DNA of 64,000 bases from Thalassotalea sp. (GCA_029237915.1 JAQWHD010000038.1:62001-126000), one strand, 5' to 3'. Positions 49,420-64,000 are shown, numbered from the stretch's first letter. The notes: a model not told the origin generated them from the letters alone. Translations and numbers: made by a program.

Positions 49420-52400
49420 TTATTTTTCAAAATAAAACGGCTTACGTTTCTTATCAAAGTTGCCAATCTCATTCATGCTGTCACCATCATAAATTCGGCC
49501 ATTGATCATAATATGAGTTACTTTGTCACTCACACGGATATCATTAGCTACATCACCATCAATAACGATAATATCAGCTAACTTACCGGCTTTAAGTGAA
49601 CCGATATGCGCATCTAAACCTAAATGTTTCGCAGGATCGATAGTTGCAGTGCGAAGTGCTTGTAGCGGTGTCATCCCGCCTTGTGCCATCATCCACATTT
49701 CCCAATGAGCCGCTAAACCTTCACGTTGGCCGTGAGCACCAATACCAACTAAAACGCCCATGTCTTGCATTTCTTTAGCTATGCTAGCTACATTTTTGTG
49801 ATTGTAATGGTGCTCTGGTGCTGTAGTTCTGCGCATCGAGCGCGGCGCTAACACATTGCTTGGTACGTACTTGCTTAAACGAGGGTGTTTCCACACTTCT
49901 GTTTTATCATACCAGTAATGCTCACCTGAAATACCGCCATAGGCTACAACAAGAGTAGGCACGTAGGCAGTTTCAGACTGTTGCCAAAATTGACGAATAT
50001 CATCATAAATTGTCGCTGTCGAAATTGAGTGCTCAAGTGATGTATGACCATCGGCAACCATAGATAAATTATGTTGCAACAATGAACCACCTTCCGGCAC
50101 GACCATCATGCCTAATTCTCGGCCAGCTTGAATAATTTGCTGACGTTGATTACGACGAGGTTGGTTGTACGATTTAACACTAAATGCACCAACTTTTTGT
50201 AAACGCTCAAGTTGGAATTTGGCATCATCTAAACTATCAACGTGCGATGTATAACCAGCAGCCGAGGCGCCGTATAAAATACTCCCTGTAGAGAAGATAC
50301 GCGGACCAACAATATCGCCAGCTTTTTGTAACTCACTTGCCGCGAATATTTCAGTCGTGTCATTCGATGGATCGTGAATAGTTGTTACGCCTAAAGAAAG
50401 CGTGGCGTAATTTTTCCAGTTTTGCTGTGGAATGATCTCATTTGAGCCTTGTGGACCATGAGCATGTGCGTCAACTAAACCAGGCATTACCGTTTTGCCA
50501 GTTACATCAATAACTTCAGCGCCTGATGGAATTTTAACTGCAGAGCGAGTACCCACGGCTTTAATGCGCTTGCCGTCAATTAGTACCACACCATCGTTGA
50601 TGATTTCTTCACCTTCCATAGTCAGTACTTTACCACCAACTAAGGCAACTAAACCTTTAGGTGCATCAGATTTTTGAGTAAAACCAAGTGAGGTTACTTT
50701 TGGTGTTAATTCTTCATCGGCTTTATAGCCGATATCGAACATACCATTTAAGCTAGCTTGATAAAGATCTGGACCTAAGCTCCAGTAAATTTCATCACTT
50801 TGGGCGTTAAAGCTAATGCTTTCACCCGCACGAGTAGATAATTTACGTACCGGAACATTTTTTGCGCTTGGACCAATATGAATAACATCACCGCGCTCTA
50901 CGAGTGGTGTAACGAATACTTTAAAACGCTCAGCAAATGCTAAATACTTACCATTAGGTGCCACTTTAAATTCTGTAGCATATTTACCTGTGTATAAGGT
51001 TTTGTCGTTTTGACCGTCTAAATCAACACGCGCAAATTCAGGCATTTCACCATAACGCTGCACATAGATGCGATCATTACGATCGGCGAACTGTGGTGCA
51101 CTACCATTTTCAGTAATAAGTGTGGCTTTACCACCTTTAACCGATACTTGATAAATACCAGAGTTTAAACCCCATTTAGGATCAGTAATATAACCGCCAG
51201 ATACTTTATTAAATACTACGGTTTTACCATTTGGTGAGAACGTTGCTTCAATGTATTTACCTGGCTCTGACAATAGGTATTTACCGCGACCAGTATTCGC
51301 TGATACTACACGTAAGTTACCTTGTTTTTTATCATCCCAAGTTGAATAAACAATGCTTTTACCATCACGAGAAAACGTAGGGTTTAGTTCAAAGTGATCA
51401 GTTTGTTTGGTTAAACGCTTTGGCTTACCGTCAGGTAATGAACGAGTATAAATATGACCTAGAGCTTCAAATACAACTTTCTTACCATTTGGTGATATTT
51501 CTACATCACGCAGCATTTTCACATCAAAGTTATCTACATCAATATTTTGCGCAAAACGTAATGCTTTTTGCATTTGTTTTTCAGCAGTTACTTTAAACTC
51601 AATAACTTCGCTTTCGTTATCTTCAAGGTTTAACTTGTTAATTTTACCGCCAGCCCAAAAGATAATTTCTTCGTTATCTGGCGTCCAAGCCATTGTTGGA
51701 TATACGCCATGAATTGCCCACGTTTCTTGCATATCACGGTCAAGCTTGTCGTAGACAGGCGTTTTACTACCAGTTTCTAAGTCGTAAATAAATAGCGTCG
51801 ATTGAAAATCAACACGCGAAATATAGGCTAACTTTTTACCATCTGGTGATGGCGTAGGACGAATCGCACCGCCACGGCCTGATAAGATCACTTCAATCTC
51901 ACCAGTTTCACGATCAAGACGTTTAATTTTATAAATGCCTGATTCACTATCTTTTGAATAGTGGAAAGTTTTACCCGGCGTTGCATCTTGAGAGAAATAA
52001 ACATAACGACCATCGGCAGAAAAGGCTGGTTCACCTAAATCTTTCTGCTGATTTGGACGCTTGGTCAGCACCATGCCGTCGCCGCCAGTTTTATGGTACA
52101 TCCATACTTCACCAGCACCTAGTGAACGACTCCCAGTAAAGTGCTTACGCGCAACAATGTAATCACCATCTGGACTCCAAGCAGGAGAATTAATTAATCG
52201 GAAAGTTTCATTAGTAATAGCCGTTTGGTTTTCGCCATCTACATCCATAACCCAAATATTGTCACCACCACCTTGGTCAGAGGTAAAAGCAATGTGCTTG
52301 CCGTCTGGAGAAAACGTTGGCTGCATTTGCCAAGCGATATCAGAAGTAAGTACCTTAGCTTCGCCGCCGCTGATTGGCATAGAGTAAATATCACCTAATA

Positions 52401-52632
52401 AATCAAAGACGATAGTTTTACCATCAGGTGAAATATCAACGTTCATCCAAGTACCTTGGTCAACATTGATTTTGGCTGTTATAAATTCGCCTTGTGGCTC
52501 ATTTACCGACCATTCTTTTTTCTCTTCTTGTTTCGCTTCTGGCTCTTGTGCAAAACTCATTGATGACGCCAGCAACATAGATAATGATGCGGCAATAATC
52601 GAAGGTTTAGTCTTCATCTTAAAAAATGACAT
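49420..52632 (-). CDS. Secreted amidohydrolase with N-terminal WD40/PD40 (TolB-like) propeller
   Basis: Signal peptide; repeated FSPDGK/SPDGKK motifs then VMPGLVDAHAHGP, SLKAGKLADIIVIDGD. Confidence 0.92.
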   Translation of the reverse strand: MSFFKMKTKPSIIAASLSMLLASSMSFAQEPEAKQEEKKEWSVNEPQGEFITAKINVDQGTWMNVDISPDGKTIVFDLLGDIYSMPISGGEAKVLTSDIAWQMQPTFSPDGKHIAFTSDQGGGDNIWVMDVDGENQTAITNETFRLINSPAWSPDGDYIVARKHFTGSRSLGAGEVWMYHKTGGDGMVLTKRPNQQKDLGEPAFSADGRYVYFSQDATPGKTFHYSKDSESGIYKIKRLDRETGEIEVILSGRGGAIRPTPSPDGKKLAYISRVDFQSTLFIYDLETGSKTPVYDKLDRDMQETWAIHGVYPTMAWTPDNEEIIFWAGGKINKLNLEDNESEVIEFKVTAEKQMQKALRFAQNIDVDNFDVKMLRDVEISPNGKKVVFEALGHIYTRSLPDGKPKRLTKQTDHFELNPTFSRDGKSIVYSTWDDKKQGNLRVVSANTGRGKYLLSEPGKYIEATFSPNGKTVVFNKVSGGYITDPKWGLNSGIYQVSVKGGKATLITENGSAPQFADRNDRIYVQRYGEMPEFARVDLDGQNDKTLYTGKYATEFKVAPNGKYLAFAERFKVFVTPLVERGDVIHIGPSAKNVPVRKLSTRAGESISFNAQSDEIYWSLGPDLYQASLNGMFDIGYKADEELTPKVTSLGFTQKSDAPKGLVALVGGKVLTMEGEEIINDGVVLIDGKRIKAVGTRSAVKIPSGAEVIDVTGKTVMPGLVDAHAHGPQGSNEIIPQQNWKNYATLSLGVTTIHDPSNDTTEIFAASELQKAGDIVGPRIFSTGSILYGASAAGYTSHVDSLDDAKFQLERLQKVGAFSVKSYNQPRRNQRQQIIQAGRELGMMVVPEGGSLLQHNLSMVADGHTSLEHSISTATIYDDIRQFWQQSETAYVPTLVVAYGGISGEHYWYDKTEVWKHPRLSKYVPSNVLAPRSMRRTTAPEHHYNHKNVASIAKEMQDMGVLVGIGAHGQREGLAAHWEMWMMAQGGMTPLQALRTATIDPAKHLGLDAHIGSLKAGKLADIIVIDGDVANDIRVSDKVTHIMINGRIYDGDSMNEIGNFDKKRKPFYFEK

Positions 52633-55075: not shown

Positions 55076-57508
55076 CTAAAGATCCGATCCTATTGGCGAT
55101 CCTGGCGGTAAACTAACTGGCGCTGGTGTTTGAATTACCTTACCTTGCTCTAAACTAAATTGAATGTGTTTATTTAATAATTGGTACTGGCTATACAAAG
55201 GATTCGATTTTTGATGATAGTTAGTTACCGATGTTAACCACTTTTGCAGTGCCATTAATTCTCTATCAACCGCAGATTTTACTTCAGTTACCAATGTTGC
55301 ACTGTGATATAAGGCTAATACACTATCGACAACTTGAGTATTTACCCGTTGTTGCACTAATAAGCTTAACTGTTTTTGTGCTGGCTGTTGCAAAGTATTA
55401 GCAAACAATGACTCTAGCAACTGTGATACAGATAATTGCTCGCTATCCATTGCATGTTGCTGTGACAAACGCGCAAGACGTTGCTCATTAAGTACCAACG
55501 ACAATGTGTGCTTAGCACTTGCTTGTGCTGCAGTTATTGGATCAAAACTTAAGCCTGTATTTGAGCTAAAGCTTTCACGATCACGGTAATATCCATAAGC
55601 CTTCGGCGGTATTAGGGCAATAATATCATCTGATAAAGTTAATGTATCAGGTGATAATGTATTAAAAAGTGCATTTACAGCCGCTTGTTGTTGCGAAGGA
55701 GTAACTACTGACTGTGGTTTTACATCTTCACCTTTAATGGCATAAGAATAGTTTACGCCAGCAATTAATTTAGCCGCGGCTTCTACTTGGTAACGATGAA
55801 AGTTATAAATAGGCACTAAAGTTTTTTCTAACTCTGAATATGGTGTGCCATCACTAATGGAGTTACGACCAAAATTTTCTAACGCTTTGGCGCGCACGGC
55901 TAACACACGATTTAACTCGGCAACCGCGTCACTTCCGTTATCCCATAAATGACCATGGCCATCAGCGCCTGAACTTGGACGCGCGTCAGGGTCTGACATA
56001 TATAATAAGCCTTTGGCTTTAGTCGCTTTTATTAAAGCTGCTAGTTGCTCGCTTTCATTATTTGGGTACTCGCCGTAAGCATAGGCAATAACATGCTTAT
56101 CCCAGTCGCCAATATCTTTGCTGTAAGCATCGGATAAATCAATTTCACCATTGGTAAGTTTTACTAGCGGGTGCGGGTAATCCATAACTGAGGCACGATT
56201 GTTTACACTGGCTGAAAAGTTATGGGCAACTCCTAAGGTGTGCCCTACTTCGTGTGCCGATAATTGACGGATACGGGCTAAGGCCATTTCTTTATGTTTG
56301 CTAGTATCTGCAGGCGTATTGCTCTCACCTTTAGCAAATGGTGACGTTAAGCCCAAAGCAATAAGGTAATCTTGACGAACTCGCAATGAGCCAAGAGTTA
56401 CATGACCTTTTAATATTTCCCCTGTTCTTGGGTCAATAACCGATGAGCCATACGACCAACCACGAGTTGCTCTATGTACCCATTGAATTACGTTATAACG
56501 TACATCCATAGGATCGGCATCTTCAGGTAACATTTTAACTTGAAATGCATCTTTATAACCAATGGCTGAGTAAGCTTGATCCCACCATGCAGCACCTTCT
56601 AATAACGCAGAGCGCACAGGCTCAGGCACGCCTGGATCTAAATAATAAATAATCGGCTCAACTGCCTCACTGATTGCAGCATTTGGCTCTTTTTTGACTA
56701 AACGATGTCTTGGGATCACACGCTTGATAAGAGACTCATCAATAGCACTAGCATAATCCGCGTATTCGACTGACCACATACCTGAATATGGGTGGAAGTT
56801 ACGGGTTTGATATTTGTTATCAGGTAAACGAATGAGTGAGTGATGCATGTTTACTGTTACAGCCGATGCATCTGGGGTAACTGAGCGAAGATAATTACCT
56901 GCGCCAGTACCTTTAAAGGTAACCGTTGCTTCTAGCTCGGTATTATCAATAAAGGCTTTACTTCGCTTGGCATACAAACCACTGCGCGAGGCATCAATAG
57001 AGAAGTTACCTTGCTTTGATTTTTTTAATTTTGCAGCTAGGTTATGAATATCAGATAATAAAAACGGTGTGTAATCAATCAACACTTTATCATTAATTAC
57101 TTTTTCAACTTTAAAGCCCCAAATAATCGAACTAGCAAAGGCTTCATCGATGGCTTGACGCTCTAATTCATTAGTACTGTCAGCACGGTAATAGGTATTT
57201 TTTTGACGCAGAAAGACTTTATTTCCCACACGTTCAAACTGCACTAAACGAGTATCACCCAGTTGGCCACGGTCTATACCAATATCATTTGAGCCAATGC
57301 CGTGCGGTAAGCTGCTTTGAAATAAAAACTCTTGATTAAAATTAGTTAATTCAACAAAAACTTGGCCAGTCGTATCATCTATATAAAAAGGCACAAAACC
57401 TCGGTGTTCGGTTTTATTGTTGAAGAAATCATCGCTAGCAGCTTGAGTATTAAAAGTAAAAAATAGTGTAGTGATAAGAAACACAATAGAAATTTTAAGG
57501 GAGTTCAT
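55076..57508 (-). CDS. Zinc-dependent metalloprotease (DUF5117/DUF4953 type)
   Basis: QLSAHEVGHTLGVAHNF metzincin motif; signal peptide from MNSLKISIVFLITTLFF. Confidence 0.88.
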   Translation of the reverse strand: MNSLKISIVFLITTLFFTFNTQAASDDFFNNKTEHRGFVPFYIDDTTGQVFVELTNFNQEFLFQSSLPHGIGSNDIGIDRGQLGDTRLVQFERVGNKVFLRQKNTYYRADSTNELERQAIDEAFASSIIWGFKVEKVINDKVLIDYTPFLLSDIHNLAAKLKKSKQGNFSIDASRSGLYAKRSKAFIDNTELEATVTFKGTGAGNYLRSVTPDASAVTVNMHHSLIRLPDNKYQTRNFHPYSGMWSVEYADYASAIDESLIKRVIPRHRLVKKEPNAAISEAVEPIIYYLDPGVPEPVRSALLEGAAWWDQAYSAIGYKDAFQVKMLPEDADPMDVRYNVIQWVHRATRGWSYGSSVIDPRTGEILKGHVTLGSLRVRQDYLIALGLTSPFAKGESNTPADTSKHKEMALARIRQLSAHEVGHTLGVAHNFSASVNNRASVMDYPHPLVKLTNGEIDLSDAYSKDIGDWDKHVIAYAYGEYPNNESEQLAALIKATKAKGLLYMSDPDARPSSGADGHGHLWDNGSDAVAELNRVLAVRAKALENFGRNSISDGTPYSELEKTLVPIYNFHRYQVEAAAKLIAGVNYSYAIKGEDVKPQSVVTPSQQQAAVNALFNTLSPDTLTLSDDIIALIPPKAYGYYRDRESFSSNTGLSFDPITAAQASAKHTLSLVLNEQRLARLSQQHAMDSEQLSVSQLLESLFANTLQQPAQKQLSLLVQQRVNTQVVDSVLALYHSATLVTEVKSAVDRELMALQKWLTSVTNYHQKSNPLYSQYQLLNKHIQFSLEQGKVIQTPAPVSLPPGSPIGSDL

Positions 57509-57729
57509 TCGAGCAATCCAAGTTTGTACATCGAGCTCAACACAAGAGTGCACATTTATAGTTATAATTTTGTCTTAAATATACAATATTTATGGCTGAA
57601 TTAGTTTAACTTATATGAAATAATTTTTTTCACTATACAAATTAGATTTATTTTTAGTGTTATTAGTATTTATTTAGTACAATACCAACAACTAATTTCT
57701 CATAAAATTACAAAACCTTAGGTATTCCT

Positions 57730-58698
57730 ATGCAACGAATTGCTCCTGCACTGCGCGAAGATAATGTTCCTTTAGACCTTATTTCTCTTATTAAAACCAT
57801 ACTTGCTGCCACCAAAGAAATTTCTTTCCGTGTTGGTCAAGGCCAGTTAAGTGGAGTGTTAGGCTCAACCTTAGATGAAAATATTCAAGGTGAAGTACAA
57901 AAGCATTTAGATGTGGTTTCTAACCAGTTGTTTAAAGACATAACCTTAGAATCGGGGTTTGTAAAAGCGATTTCTTCAGAAGAAGAAGATACTTCCGTTG
58001 CCGGCCATGAGTCAGGAAAATATATCGTTTCATTTGATCCACTCGATGGTAGTTCAAATATCGATATTAACTCATTAATTGGTACTATCTTTTCTATCAT
58101 GGAAGCACCTGAAGGCATGAAGGCCGCTGATCCTGATATGTTCAAGCAACCGGGAACTAAACAGGTGTGTGCTGGTTATGTGTTGTACGGTCCATCAACA
58201 GTACTTGCTTTAACCACAGGTAAAGGTACACATTTTTATACCTTAGATAAAACTCACGGTAGTTACATGCTTACCGAGCGTAACGTTAAGATCCCTGAAA
58301 ATACCGAAGAATTTGCGATTAACATGTCTAACCAACGCTCATGGCAACAACCGATGAAAAACTACATCGGTGATTTATTGCTTGGTAAAGACGGCCCTCG
58401 TGAGAAAAACTTTAACATGCGCTGGATTGCTGCCATGGTTGGTGATGTACACAGAGTATTAGTGCGCGGCGGTATATTTACTTACCCAAGTGATAACCGT
58501 GACCCGAACAAGCCATTTAAATTACGCCTTATGTATGAAGCTAACCCAATGAGCTTTTTAGTTGAACAAGCCGGTGGTTTAAGTGTTACTAGCACTGGCC
58601 GTATTATGGAAATTGAACCTACCGATATTCATCAACGTGTTGAAGTTATTTTAGGTTCGAAAAACGAAGTTGAAAAATGTTTAAGCTATTATAAATAG
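57730..58698 (+). CDS. fbp: Fructose-1,6-bisphosphatase class I
   Basis: [26 protein letters not shown]. Confidence 0.95.
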
Positions 58699-58720
58699 TC
58701 AGTAATTTTTCTAACTTATG

Positions 58721-58748
58721 AAAAACTCGGTCTTTACCGAGTTTTTTT
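58721..58748 (+). terminator. fbp terminator
   Basis: AAAAACTCGGT-cttt-ACCGAGTTTTTTT. Confidence 0.85.
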
Positions 58749-58885: not shown

Positions 58886-61564
58886 ATGATTTTAAACCAG
58901 GTTAAAACAACCTACTTATCTGCCATATCAGTAAGCAGCTTAATGTTAGTGATAATGTTAAGTATTTTGACTTTACCACAAGCTTTCGCTGCAGAAGAGG
59001 TTGCCCAAGAAACTAAAACTGTGCAGAGCGAAACAGCTGAAATTAATGCTGAAAAAACAATAGCAGGTACTGAAGTATCCGCTAAAGATAAGCAATCCGA
59101 GCCTAAAGAAACAGATGAACCGACTACAGAGTTGCCTAGCAACACAGTAGAGCAAGTCGTTGTTGCAGAGACTGATGTTGCAGAGACTGATGTTGCAGAG
59201 CCTGTTGCTGAAGAAGCTATTGCTGAAGAGCCTGATGTTGCAGAGCCGGGCATTAACGAACCTATCGCTGCCGAGAAGTCCGAGCAGGTTGACTTAACCT
59301 TACTTGCAGAAAACAGTTTAGAAAGCTTTGAAGCTGAGTTCTACAGCCTAAAAGATAAAATAGCTAGCTTAAGCCGCAGTGCAGATGACTACGAAGAATT
59401 ATATGCGCGCCTGCGCCCTGTGCTTACACAAAAAACAGAGCAGTTATATCAATTAATGAATCGCGATAATGTCGACTTAAAACTCATGAGCCAAATGGCT
59501 AATGATGCAGAGTTTCAAGATATATTCAGCCGCGTGCGCGAGATCAAAAACTTTTATTTATTACGTCAGCAAATTTTTAACGAAGCGAGCGAAGAGTTTC
59601 GAGACTTACTTACCAGCAGTAAATTAAACGGCGTTACCGAAGCTAAATTAGAAGCAAGTTATGTACAACTGCAAGTGTTAATTATAACTAAAGCGACATT
59701 GCAGCGTACGTTAGAGATCCCTGAACGCTTCCAAGTAGCACCGGTCGCTATTATTATTAATATCTGCGTTTTATTATTCGCCATTGTTGTCTTTAGATTA
59801 TGGCGCAAGTGGGCAAAAACTGGCTTAGCGCAGCAGCGTCAAAAAATAATGGCCGTGCGCCCAAGAACGCCGCTTAGAATGAAAGCCGCCCGAGCTATTT
59901 GGTATTTCGAGCACACTCGTAAACCACTAGAGTGGTTGTTATTTATCAACTTTATTCTTGCTAATATCGATATTTTACAAATTCCAATCATCATTTCAGT
60001 GGTTGGCACGATTGCGCTTTGGGTATCACTCACCTTCTTTGCTTTTAACTTTATTAGCAAGATGATTGAGCGTGGCAAACAGAATATGCTTAAAGACATC
60101 ACGAAAAAGCAATCTGCATCTTTAAAGTGGGTTATTTGGTGGGCCGGTTGGTACAAGTTGTCTTTCGAGCTAACCGCAATATTTATTGCCAACGGTACAA
60201 TATTTAGTTGGTTAGAATCTATCTTTCAAATTTTATTATTGCCAGTATACATTTTCTTTATCTATCAGTGGCGACAAGACTGCTTTAACTACATTGATGA
60301 AGAACGCGATACGCCAGCATTAATTCGTAAACTAGTGACGATTCGTGTCGGTACACGTGGCTTTATCAATGCCAATATTGCCCTATTGTTTGTGGTTTAC
60401 TTCTTCTTAACTAAATTTTTCTTAAGTTTGATTTCTAAAGTAGAGTCTGGCCGTAGAATCACCGCAGAAATTTATCGCAAAAAGCTAATCGTTGACAATA
60501 AAGACTTAATTGAAAAAAGTAAAAGTTTAGATAGCTTAGACGCCGACAAAAGAAAAATATTTATTGATGGCCAAGACACGCAAATCGATTCGGTATTTGC
60601 AGGCCCAGTTGAATCAATTTTACAAATGGCCAATTCAGATGAACGCAGCCACATTGCCGTAATTGGTGAACGCGGTATCGGTAAAACTCATTTACTCAAA
60701 GAAATTAACCAGCAATACCCTAAATCACTTATCGTTAATTGTAACGAAGACTTTGATGACGTAATTAAGTCTGTAAAAGAGCAATTAGGCATTGAAAGTG
60801 AACACGTAAAAACCGCTGAAATTATTAAAGCGCTACAAGAGCAAGAAATAGATTTGTTCTTATTAGATAACTGTCACCGCATGCTAACACCCGATACCAG
60901 TGGTCAACGTGAAATTCGCCGTTTATTCGGTTGGGTAAACGAGCTTAAAGGGTTGGGCTTATGGGTAATGACTTACACCAGTAGTTCGTGGAAGTTATTC
61001 AATGCCCTAGGTATTGCTAACGGCTTCTTTGCTAAAAAAATTGAATTAAAAAAATGGTCTGAAGAACAAATTTGTGAATTGTTTGAGAAACGCTGTGCAG
61101 AAGCAGAAATTAATATTGATTACTCTAACCTGCTGATCCCAAGGCAACTTGCTGATCTTGAAGACAGCACCATAGAGCAACGCAACAAAGCTGGTGTGTA
61201 TCGCATTATATGGGGTTATGCCGATGGTAACCCTGCCATTGCTTGTCGCACCCTTGCTGACTCACTCGTTATCGACAATGGTAAGTTGATCGCCAAGTTA
61301 CCGTCATACCCACAAAGTAATGTAATAGAAGGGTTTGAAATTAATACCTTATTGGTATTAAGGGTAATTAGCCAGTTCGGCCGCTGTGGTGTGCAAGATA
61401 TAATACAGAACTTACGTTTGCATGGCTTAGTGGTCAACAGTGCTATTGCAGCCTGTGTAGCACAAGGCATTATTGAACAGGTAAATGGTCGCTATCAAGT
61501 CAGTTGGCTGTGGTATCGCGAAGTATCTAAATTCCTTGCTCGTCAAAACTTACTTACCCGCTAG
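58886..61564 (+). CDS. Membrane protein with periplasmic acidic/coiled-coil region, several TM helices and a cytosolic P-loop (AAA/STAND-like) ATPase
   Basis: Signal peptide ending AFA; VAETDVAETDVAEP repeats; Walker A GERGIGKTH (60665-60691), Walker B-like DLFLLDNCHRM; C-terminal winged-helix-like tail. Confidence 0.75.
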   Translation: MILNQVKTTYLSAISVSSLMLVIMLSILTLPQAFAAEEVAQETKTVQSETAEINAEKTIAGTEVSAKDKQSEPKETDEPTTELPSNTVEQVVVAETDVAETDVAEPVAEEAIAEEPDVAEPGINEPIAAEKSEQVDLTLLAENSLESFEAEFYSLKDKIASLSRSADDYEELYARLRPVLTQKTEQLYQLMNRDNVDLKLMSQMANDAEFQDIFSRVREIKNFYLLRQQIFNEASEEFRDLLTSSKLNGVTEAKLEASYVQLQVLIITKATLQRTLEIPERFQVAPVAIIINICVLLFAIVVFRLWRKWAKTGLAQQRQKIMAVRPRTPLRMKAARAIWYFEHTRKPLEWLLFINFILANIDILQIPIIISVVGTIALWVSLTFFAFNFISKMIERGKQNMLKDITKKQSASLKWVIWWAGWYKLSFELTAIFIANGTIFSWLESIFQILLLPVYIFFIYQWRQDCFNYIDEERDTPALIRKLVTIRVGTRGFINANIALLFVVYFFLTKFFLSLISKVESGRRITAEIYRKKLIVDNKDLIEKSKSLDSLDADKRKIFIDGQDTQIDSVFAGPVESILQMANSDERSHIAVIGERGIGKTHLLKEINQQYPKSLIVNCNEDFDDVIKSVKEQLGIESEHVKTAEIIKALQEQEIDLFLLDNCHRMLTPDTSGQREIRRLFGWVNELKGLGLWVMTYTSSSWKLFNALGIANGFFAKKIELKKWSEEQICELFEKRCAEAEINIDYSNLLIPRQLADLEDSTIEQRNKAGVYRIIWGYADGNPAIACRTLADSLVIDNGKLIAKLPSYPQSNVIEGFEINTLLVLRVISQFGRCGVQDIIQNLRLHGLVVNSAIAACVAQGIIEQVNGRYQVSWLWYREVSKFLARQNLLTR

Positions 61565-61576
61565 AGGACTGCATTC

Positions 61577-62500
61577 ATGTTAGCGAATAAAATTAAATTT
61601 TTTAAAGCCATTGCCCTAGTATTCATTACTTGGATGGTATCAAACCCTGCACTTGCACAAATTCCTAACCAGGAAGAATTGCAAGTTATTACCACCTTGG
61701 CGCAAGTAGTAAAACCAACCGGTTTATTTATGTCGGTGATTTTATTTTTTGTGGTTTGGGCAGTATTAAAAGTGACTAAAACCATAGTAAACGATTTAAG
61801 TGAAGTATTTGCCGAGCGCCGTTTATTACTGCAAAAAGCCTTAGTATTCTTCCAATTTATTGCCTATTTCTTTGCCATTTCTACCGCTGTTATGATGAGC
61901 TTTGAGTTTAGTAAAGAGCTACTTGCAATACTCGGTGGTACCTTAGCGGTTGCTTTTGGTTTTGCCATGAAAGATTTAGCAGCATCGGTTGTTGCCGGTA
62001 TTATCATCATGTTCGACAGGCCGTTCCAGGTTGGCGATAGAGTACTTTTTTCAGGTGAATACGGTGACGTAACTTCAATTGGCTTACGCTCAGTAAAAAT
62101 GACCACCTTAGATGACAATGTTATCACCATTCCGAACAATACTTTTTTAACCCAACTTACCTCTTGTGGTAACTACGGTGAATTAGATATGCAAGTAGCC
62201 ATTAACTTTCATATTGGTATTGATGAAGATTTAGAGAAAGCGCAATTAACCATTCGAGAATGTGCTGCATTAAGTAAGTTTGCTTATTTAAACAAGCCAA
62301 TTAATGTCTTAATTACGCAAGTGTTAACCAATAACTTTATTGCTTACAAACTAACATTAAAAGTGTATGTACTTGATACTAAATACGAGAAAGCGTTAGA
62401 AACCGATATTACCCTAAGAGTAAATAACGAGTTTAGAAAACACGGCATTAAAGCGCCAACTATGATGGTGACTAATACAGTGAGTCGGGCGATAAGTTAA
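61577..62500 (+). CDS. MscS-family mechanosensitive ion channel
   Basis: ILGGTLAVAFGFAMKDLAASVVAGIIIMFDRPFQVGDRV and TTLDDNVITIPNN; signal-peptide-like N-term. Confidence 0.92.
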   Translation: MLANKIKFFKAIALVFITWMVSNPALAQIPNQEELQVITTLAQVVKPTGLFMSVILFFVVWAVLKVTKTIVNDLSEVFAERRLLLQKALVFFQFIAYFFAISTAVMMSFEFSKELLAILGGTLAVAFGFAMKDLAASVVAGIIIMFDRPFQVGDRVLFSGEYGDVTSIGLRSVKMTTLDDNVITIPNNTFLTQLTSCGNYGELDMQVAINFHIGIDEDLEKAQLTIRECAALSKFAYLNKPINVLITQVLTNNFIAYKLTLKVYVLDTKYEKALETDITLRVNNEFRKHGIKAPTMMVTNTVSRAIS

Positions 62501-62637: not shown

Positions 62638-64000
62638 TTAACATATCTGATCTTCACCTGGAACACATGCTTCAGGCACTTCTCGTTCAGCAAGAGGTAT
62701 AACTCTGATCTTACTAAAATCGATTTCGAAGCTTTGGCTGTCATCTACCTTAGGAGCTTCATCAGCTATAGCTGCTCGGACCAATTCTTCTGGGCTAATA
62801 CCTGGTGTACAAGTCGCTATAGAGCTGCCCGCTTCAGCACTACAACGTGGGAAGTGAGCCTCTGGGAAGTTTTGTATCCAGCTAAGTTCACCACTAGGAT
62901 CTTCAAAATGAACACCAGTAATGGTACATTCATATTTTCCTTCGCCAATTGGTGGACAGAAATTAAATTCTTCCCCGTTAGCATCATGTATGTTTGCATA
63001 ACTAGTACGTAAAATAGTAAGGATTAAACGTCTATCAAAGCTATCTCTGAAAACATTGTTCGCAGCAATCGAACTATCATACTCTAAAGACCATTCAGTA
63101 GTGTGCCAGAATTGACCAGAATTCAATGGATATTCATAGCCACTCCCCCCTGAGTCCTTACAAACCATTTGTGTAGCATCTTGTTCTGCGCTACATGTTG
63201 GTTCTGCAGAAGTTGTACCATTTGATTCCCAACATAATGGGTAACCATTCCAAACACCAGATATACAAGAAATCATATCTATTTCCCCTAAATTAGCAAA
63301 CCCACCGCTTCTTGGGTTATCATCTTGTGGTAGTTTGAAAATCTCACTCACCTTTTTAGCTGTAATTGCGTCTCTTTTAATTAACGCAATGCACTCTTCG
63401 ATCCCGGTATAATCAGTATCATCAAGATCTGCTTTTGCTATTAATAATACATTTTGCTCACAATTAATTGGGTTACCTGAAACTTGTAATGTCTTTGGTA
63501 AAGCTGCCATGTTAAGTAAAGGTGTAACATTACTAATATTATTAGAATTTAGATATAATTTCTCTAAGCTTAACAATGAAGTAACCGCTGTAATATCCGC
63601 TATAGCATTGTGCTCTATATTTAAAGTTTGTATGCTACTTAGTGTACTTAAAGCACTTATATTGATAATTGCATTATTATTAGCGACTAAGGTTGTTAAA
63701 TCTGCATAAACACCTAAAGATGAAACATCACTTAAAGATGAAATAACCGTAACAGTCTCGACATCTGTTAGAGGATCTACCACTGTTTCACTTACGGTAT
63801 TGTTAGCAATATTCAAATACGTTAATGGCGCTGCATCGTTTAAGATACTGACATCTATGATGCCTGTTTCGGATAAGTTTAAGGCTTCGAGTTTTTCCAG
63901 CGCATTTAACGCAGTAAAATCGTTAATTGGATTTATCTTTAAGTTCAACGAAGTTAAGCTTGTCAACGTTTCAATTCCGGCCATTGAAGTGATCTTGTTG
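62638..64000 (-). CDS. Leucine-rich-repeat (internalin-like) secreted protein with Cys-rich C-terminal domain, N-term truncated by window edge
   Basis: LTSLTSLNLKINPINDFTALNALEKLEALNLSETGI...; frame stays open upstream of track Met (…NKITSMAGIETL). Confidence 0.85.
   Translation of the reverse strand, partial: NKITSMAGIETLTSLTSLNLKINPINDFTALNALEKLEALNLSETGIIDVSILNDAAPLTYLNIANNTVSETVVDPLTDVETVTVISSLSDVSSLGVYADLTTLVANNNAIINISALSTLSSIQTLNIEHNAIADITAVTSLLSLEKLYLNSNNISNVTPLLNMAALPKTLQVSGNPINCEQNVLLIAKADLDDTDYTGIEECIALIKRDAITAKKVSEIFKLPQDDNPRSGGFANLGEIDMISCISGVWNGYPLCWESNGTTSAEPTCSAEQDATQMVCKDSGGSGYEYPLNSGQFWHTTEWSLEYDSSIAANNVFRDSFDRRLILTILRTSYANIHDANGEEFNFCPPIGEGKYECTITGVHFEDPSGELSWIQNFPEAHFPRCSAEAGSSIATCTPGISPEELVRAAIADEAPKVDDSQSFEIDFSKIRVIPLAEREVPEACVPGEDQIC

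Follow-up and report, generated by a model that had tools for sequence, protein, structure and literature searches.

An apparently undescribed two-gene channel system that pairs a membrane NTPase-fold protein with an MscS-family channel

Channels of the MscS family are textbook self-sufficient valves, and AAA_22 domains are carried by membrane proteins in ATPases of the ExeA/GspA type. The small channels MscS and YnaI have a core of three transmembrane helices and a beta domain, while NTPases of the ORC/Cdc6 and STAND groups (NB-ARC, NACHT, PABY2304) share an AAA+ core, a lid, a winged helix and a GxP motif. The larger MscK comprises a periplasmic domain, an outer bundle of helices TM1-6 and a core of TM7-11, with V921 and F925 as its gate residues (PMC9653487). 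Here we describe a gene pair from Thalassotalea sp. that shares features with each of these systems and differs from each.

The pair lies in a window, that is, the whole stretch of DNA that was analysed, of 64,000 nucleotides (GCA_029237915.1 JAQWHD010000038.1:62001-126000). The initial annotation had placed two genes here 12 nt apart, and both open reading frames were confirmed on the plus strand at 58886-61564 and 61577-62500, with AGGA preceding the ATG of gene 2. The parts it had recognised in gene 1 (signal peptide, acidic segment, helical region, transmembrane helices, P-loop domain and winged helix) were recovered from the sequence and an AlphaFold2 model, and its reading of gene 2 as an MscS-type protein with a signal-peptide-like N-terminus agrees with the Pfam match to MS_channel_2nd. 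The features of the locus are as follows.

58720..58747, plus strand: terminator hairpin between fbp and gene 1 (-13.9 kcal/mol, z -6.4)
58886..61564, plus strand: gene 1, membrane NTPase-fold protein, 892 aa (ORF; AAA_22 E 1.7e-8; same neighbour in 59/59 homologues)
58886..58993, plus strand: signal peptide, residues ~1-36, ending ...LPQAFA before AEE (sequence; family hydropathy peak 19-37)
58994..59290, plus strand: acidic low-complexity segment, residues 37-135, not conserved (28 D/E, 6 K/R; pLDDT <50)
59291..59734, plus strand: predicted periplasmic helical domain, residues ~136-283 (AlphaFold2 pLDDT 80-90, helices 137-276)
59735..60439, plus strand: membrane bundle, residues ~284-518, five strong helices and a weaker one at 413-434 (hydropathy; hhalign to MscK/MscM)
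60563..61300, plus strand: AAA+ (ORC/Cdc6-, STAND-like) NTPase-fold domain (Pfam; AlphaFold2; Foldseek)
60665..60688, plus strand: Walker A GERGIGKT, residues 594-601, K600 intact (motif alignment)
60851..60871, plus strand: Walker B DLFLLDN, D661, with N662 in the catalytic Glu position (motif alignment)
61226..61234, plus strand: GNP, the GxP motif (GxP in 56/59 members)
61328..61561, plus strand: C-terminal winged helix and tail, residues ~815-892 (AlphaFold2; Foldseek to ORC/Cdc6 including the lid/winged-helix region)
61577..62500, plus strand: gene 2, MscS-family channel, 307 aa (ORF; MS_channel_2nd E 3.7e-18; MscS/MscK/YnaI structures matched)
61922..62014, plus strand: pore helix TM3, gene 2 residues 116-146 (alignment)

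Since a strong terminator ends fbp upstream, the pair probably has its own transcription, separate from that gene. The host genome holds one copy of gene 1 and seven MscS-domain genes, gene 2 among them, and the nearest named record of the genus is that of Thalassomonas sp. M1454 (L017), at 82% identity.

Gene 2 is, as judged from its sequence, an MscS-family channel. PF00924, which covers the MscS beta domain and pore helix, matches at 65.8 bits against a cut-off of 20.2, the C-terminal alpha/beta domain PF21082 scores 20.3 bits, just under its cut-off of 21, and solved MscS, MscK and YnaI are matched by the sequence. The signal-peptide-like segment at its N-terminus extends to about 61660. 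In a likeness to MscK, the pore has V/F gate positions, V125 and F129 aligning with MscK V921 and F925. Gene 2 also shares the three-helix core and beta domain of MscS and YnaI, but unlike them it falls in a subfamily of its own that was always paired with an NTPase-fold protein in the genomes sampled. In a tree of 70 MscS domains the partner proteins form one clade, opposite the MscK/MscM pores and with moderate support (82/91), that takes in the paired copies of six surveyed genomes and none of their other MscS proteins. This clade splits further into the partners of short (99/97) and of long (93/97) NTPase-fold proteins.

The AlphaFold2 model of the gene 1 protein, built with 38 homologues, has a pLDDT of 78.8 and resolves the helical, membrane, AAA+ and winged-helix parts, with disorder only at residues 1-18 and 29-135. 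A signal-peptide-like start is common to the other long members inspected, L129 excepted, and the acidic segment is missing from homologues of 780 aa. Gene 1 has no match to Pfam MscS_TM (PF12794) or MscS_porin (PF12795) and no fitting NCBIfam or PADLOC family; no solved-structure chain was matched in single-sequence searches, and the membrane part alone found nothing in a sequence search of solved structures. We infer that the NTPase domain is cytosolic because short forms of the protein that have no export signal pair with the same channels. A cytosolic domain requires an odd number of membrane crossings after the cleaved signal peptide. Five helices of gene 1 lie above a strict hydropathy cut and the family average gives six, two of them weaker. 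We note a puzzle of parity in this region (59735-60439), where, with a signal peptide and six helices, the NTPase domain would end up periplasmic if all six span the membrane.

The comparison with MscK and MscM (KefA, YjeP) bears on the split-MscK architecture that was first proposed for the pair. The layout appears MscK-like, in that gene 1 has a predicted exported periplasmic helical domain followed by a membrane bundle that may be of the outer type. Profile comparison (hhalign) aligns its membrane part with MscK/MscM residues ~488-684, where the outer bundle begins, at a probability of 74-80% and a score of 52-55; reversed profiles reach 23-30 and 40 block shuffles no more than 30.7. When the membrane part was modelled separately (pLDDT 86.4), Foldseek ranked open MscK (7ux1) second among PDB chains, at an E of 1.6 that is not significant. 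There is thus moderate support for remote kinship of this bundle with the MscK outer bundle or for a similar design. The pair differs from MscK/MscM in being two genes rather than one, in carrying an AAA+ domain after the outer bundle, in the absence of a detectable PF12794 from gene 1 and in a pore subfamily outside the MscK/MscM clade. Because the pores lie in different clades, a plain split of MscK is unsupported, and simple gene fission was rejected on the pore tree. A PF12794 search found no MscK/MscM in the 16 genus genomes surveyed, host included. One genome (G056) carries the pair together with a 1102-aa MscK-like protein; the two are therefore not mutually exclusive.

The NTPase domain is matched by Pfam AAA_22 over residues 586-680 (35.3 bits, cut-off 27), and AAA+/Clp-like sequence matches were also obtained. 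The best Foldseek matches are archaeal ORC2 (1w5t, E 2e-7), Cdc6, PABY2304 and RuvB, with the NLR Roq1 also present; the E-values for 1w5t, Cdc6 and PABY2304 are about 1e-7 to 1e-6 and their TM-scores are low, the query being multidomain. The structure check envisaged in the initial annotation thus returned a predicted ORC/Cdc6-like fold with AAA+ core, lid and winged helix, and of its suggestion of a STAND-like sensor, a STAND/ORC-like NTPase domain is supported, through this fold and the GxP motif. In contrast to ORC/Cdc6 and STAND proteins, the gene 1 family is membrane-anchored, paired with a channel and mostly without catalytic residues. The gene 1 chain stops after the winged helix and so has neither the C-terminal sensor repeats nor the fused effector domain of STAND proteins. 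An hhGRExE-like motif occurs in five of the 59 members, all without membrane helices. The C-terminal tail is conserved (L884 invariant, R886 85%, L889 85%, L890 88%). A docking peptide in this tail was considered and dropped, the regular expression for the motif having matched only 18/59 members.

The pairing of the two genes is conserved. The member set consists of 59 non-identical gene 1 homologues scoring at least 80 bits, and in all 59, at identities down to about 15%, an MscS gene stands directly downstream on the same strand, mostly at gaps of -8 to +21 nt. Gene 1 shares with ExeA/GspA-type ATPases an AAA_22 domain on a membrane protein; unlike gene 1, however, generic AAA_22 matches in the same searches stay below 47 bits and lack an adjacent MscS gene, as the internal control indicates (0/47 proteins at 33-47 bits, flanks of ~1.5 kb). 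Gene 1 is present in 16 of 61 relatives, with the MscS gene directly after it in all 16, two of which are at 21-22% identity and no longer have fbp as a neighbour. In the reverse direction, a profile of the MscS subfamily matched 19 of the 61 relatives, and an NTPase-family gene lay upstream in every case (16 long forms, short forms in G041 and G049, and a decayed one in G060). Four genomes of the same genus carry neither gene. The expectation that the genes would remain neighbours in other genomes was thus borne out in both directions, and the pairing is obligate both ways in the genomes sampled, beyond chance.

The distribution was sampled within Pseudomonadota. A single-sequence scan of genome contigs yielded one close relative only, and the wider reach came from profiles, run on 395 genomes from the same order, about 370 from the class, 399 from the phylum and on two further classes. 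Members were found in this way in other families of Gammaproteobacteria and in a second class of the phylum, most probably Alphaproteobacteria. Of 72,556 plasmids searched, 3 carry it. Independent annotation likewise gives an ATP-binding or AAA protein followed by a mechanosensitive channel in two named Alphaproteobacteria: plasmid NZ_CP114872.1 of Caulobacter sp. NIBR2454 has an ATP-binding protein and then two MscS-domain genes, and pLA3 of Novosphingobium pentaromativorans US6-1 has an AAA ATPase and an MscS gene. The second MscS-type gene of the NIBR2454 plasmid (L136:8684-9622), directly after the pair, is only distantly similar. Inter-protein distances of genes 1 and 2 correlate at r=0.95 (0/1000 permutations), part of which stems from the shared ancestry of the genomes. 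The family comprises a long form of 670-1143 aa, usually with signal peptide, periplasmic helical domain, membrane bundle and NTPase domain, and a short form of 392-428 aa that is NTPase only, with no membrane helix or signal peptide; one further member (L103) has 791 aa and no membrane helices. Because the soluble short forms pair with the same MscS subfamily, the NTPase-fold domain is the common channel-linked part.

Analysis of the active site reveals extensive decay. The Walker A lysine position holds K in 24 of the 59 members, T in 13, A in 12, L in 3, S in 3, R in 2, V in 1 and I in 1, a loss of the lysine in 35; in related NLR proteins, replacement of this lysine by Ala or Arg is the standard means of abolishing nucleotide binding (PMC6713354). 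The Walker B Asp is kept in 58/59, and the residue after it, normally Glu or Asp, is N in 49, D in 7, E in 2 and L in 1, so that the catalytic Glu is lost in 57/59. Intact STAND Walker A and B motifs are thus not a property of the family as a whole; the window copy itself retains the Walker A lysine. The extreme case is the 340-aa ORF L213 (L213/L215, genome G060), which lacks the P-loop entirely, gives a weak match (E 2e-6) to the C-terminal portion of the NTPase profile and is followed by an MscS gene. Estimates of dN/dS are ~0.03-0.07 in both genes, including in a lineage without the Walker A lysine. Because lysine and Glu are so widely lost, and because L213 has no P-loop, ATP hydrolysis was ruled out as the general mechanism. 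The ATP-dependent gating suggested at first is weakened accordingly as far as hydrolysis is concerned; for the window protein, nucleotide binding is plausible and hydrolysis doubtful, since GERGIGKT is retained and N662 is present.

We consider it probable that the pair is a two-subunit MscS-type channel in which gene 1 provides a dedicated, often non-hydrolysing NTPase-fold subunit for gating or sensing. Gene 2 would form a heptameric MscS-type pore, and gene 1 would serve as its dedicated gating or sensor subunit. The periplasmic helices and membrane bundle of gene 1 may read tension or the periplasm, in the manner of the outer PD-TM1-6 bundle in MscK, and its AAA+ domain with the winged helix would dock on the cytosolic vestibule of the pore and bias its opening. 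Where the Walker A motif is intact, as here, nucleotide binding would probably set the state of the switch, and in the many lineages with a degenerate site the domain would act as a non-hydrolysing pseudo-NTPase. We infer a physical complex, a docking site, an effect on gating and the sensing of nucleotide; conserved gene order can instead reflect assembly or shared expression. More tentatively, the pair could represent an undescribed class of two-subunit channel of the mechanosensitive type. Its membrane-anchored ORC/STAND-like subunit would couple an MscS pore to nucleotide state or to some other signal from the cytosol, and would have become a pseudo-NTPase repeatedly without becoming dispensable.

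Obligate pairing would fit equally well with gene 1 being an AAA+ chaperone-like assembly or quality-control factor that builds or places the MscS channel rather than gating it, as the AAA+/Clp-like matches might suggest. We regard this as unlikely: most members have a degenerate P-loop, which leaves no motor, the resemblance of the membrane bundle to that of MscK points to a sensor, and other MscS proteins are not known to need an AAA+ assembly factor. It is also improbable that gene 2 is an ordinary osmotic valve working alone, with gene 1 a co-transcribed, independent sensor of osmotic or nucleotide state. MscS proteins do generally gate alone, and the host has six others, but two-way obligate pairing with an exclusive MscS subfamily is difficult to account for if the proteins share neither a complex nor a function.

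The surroundings of the pair weigh on a further alternative, in which a STAND-like NTPase, on sensing an invader, opens the MscS pore so that the cell dies or is arrested. The ORC/STAND-type fold, the near-universal GxP motif, the hhGRExE-like motif of some short forms and the few copies on large plasmids speak for such a switch. However, the pair stands alone among neighbours that vary by lineage and are housekeeping genes as named from sequence (fbp, ABC-F, chemotaxis receptors, rpiA, glucokinase/zwf-like, transaldolase, glycogen phosphorylase), and the defence-island neighbourhood raised in the initial annotation did not appear. PADLOC, run on ten neighbours, returned generic ABC, helicase and phospholipase matches only, and neither protein of the pair fits a PADLOC family (best E 0.0016). 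The locus is constant beside fbp within the genus, plasmid copies are rare, the protein has no repeat or recognition domain, and its active site decays. The context is thus housekeeping rather than defence; a defence system was rejected on the neighbourhoods and the PADLOC result, and we hold the switch to be quite improbable. Gene 1 as a membrane-bound ORC/Cdc6-like DNA-binding regulator, with the channel only an anchor or signal source, is hardly credible, since its fold and winged helix match ORC/Cdc6 but the short forms retain the MscS pairing and not any DNA context, and the neighbourhoods surveyed showed neither a conserved DNA target nor a conserved neighbour.

Several other observations concern the neighbourhood. 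Sugar-metabolism genes, named from sequence as fbp, rpiA, glycogen phosphorylase, sugar phosphatase, glucokinase/zwf-like and transaldolase, adjoin the pair in several unrelated lineages (window 57730-58698; L130, L131, L132, L053, L134, L135), which may be chance. On the minus strand near the window end, 62641-63984 encodes an LRR protein convergent with the channel gene and not a conserved neighbour. Also on the minus strand, 55076-57553 encodes a large exported protein with a metzincin-type zinc site (HEVGHTLGVAH) beside mpl and fbp, and its gene is kept beside the pair in several genus genomes. A 1070-aa exported protein at 49420-52632 (minus strand) looks like a fusion of TolB/WD40-like repeats with an amidohydrolase.

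The two-gene channel system is real and conserved. No description of an MscS-ATPase system was found in the open-access literature or in curated families, and the claim that the system is undescribed stands in that no described family matching a membrane NTPase and MscS unit was found; it is apparently undescribed. If the proposed reading of gene 1 as a dedicated subunit of the gene 2 channel is true, one MscS subfamily would be controlled by a separate cytosolic or membrane subunit across Alpha- and Gammaproteobacteria, and this would create a link between membrane tension and the nucleotide or metabolic state. Since the Walker A lysine has been lost repeatedly in nature while strong purifying selection keeps the protein, the family is a natural test bed for the role of an AAA+/STAND fold deprived of nucleotide chemistry.
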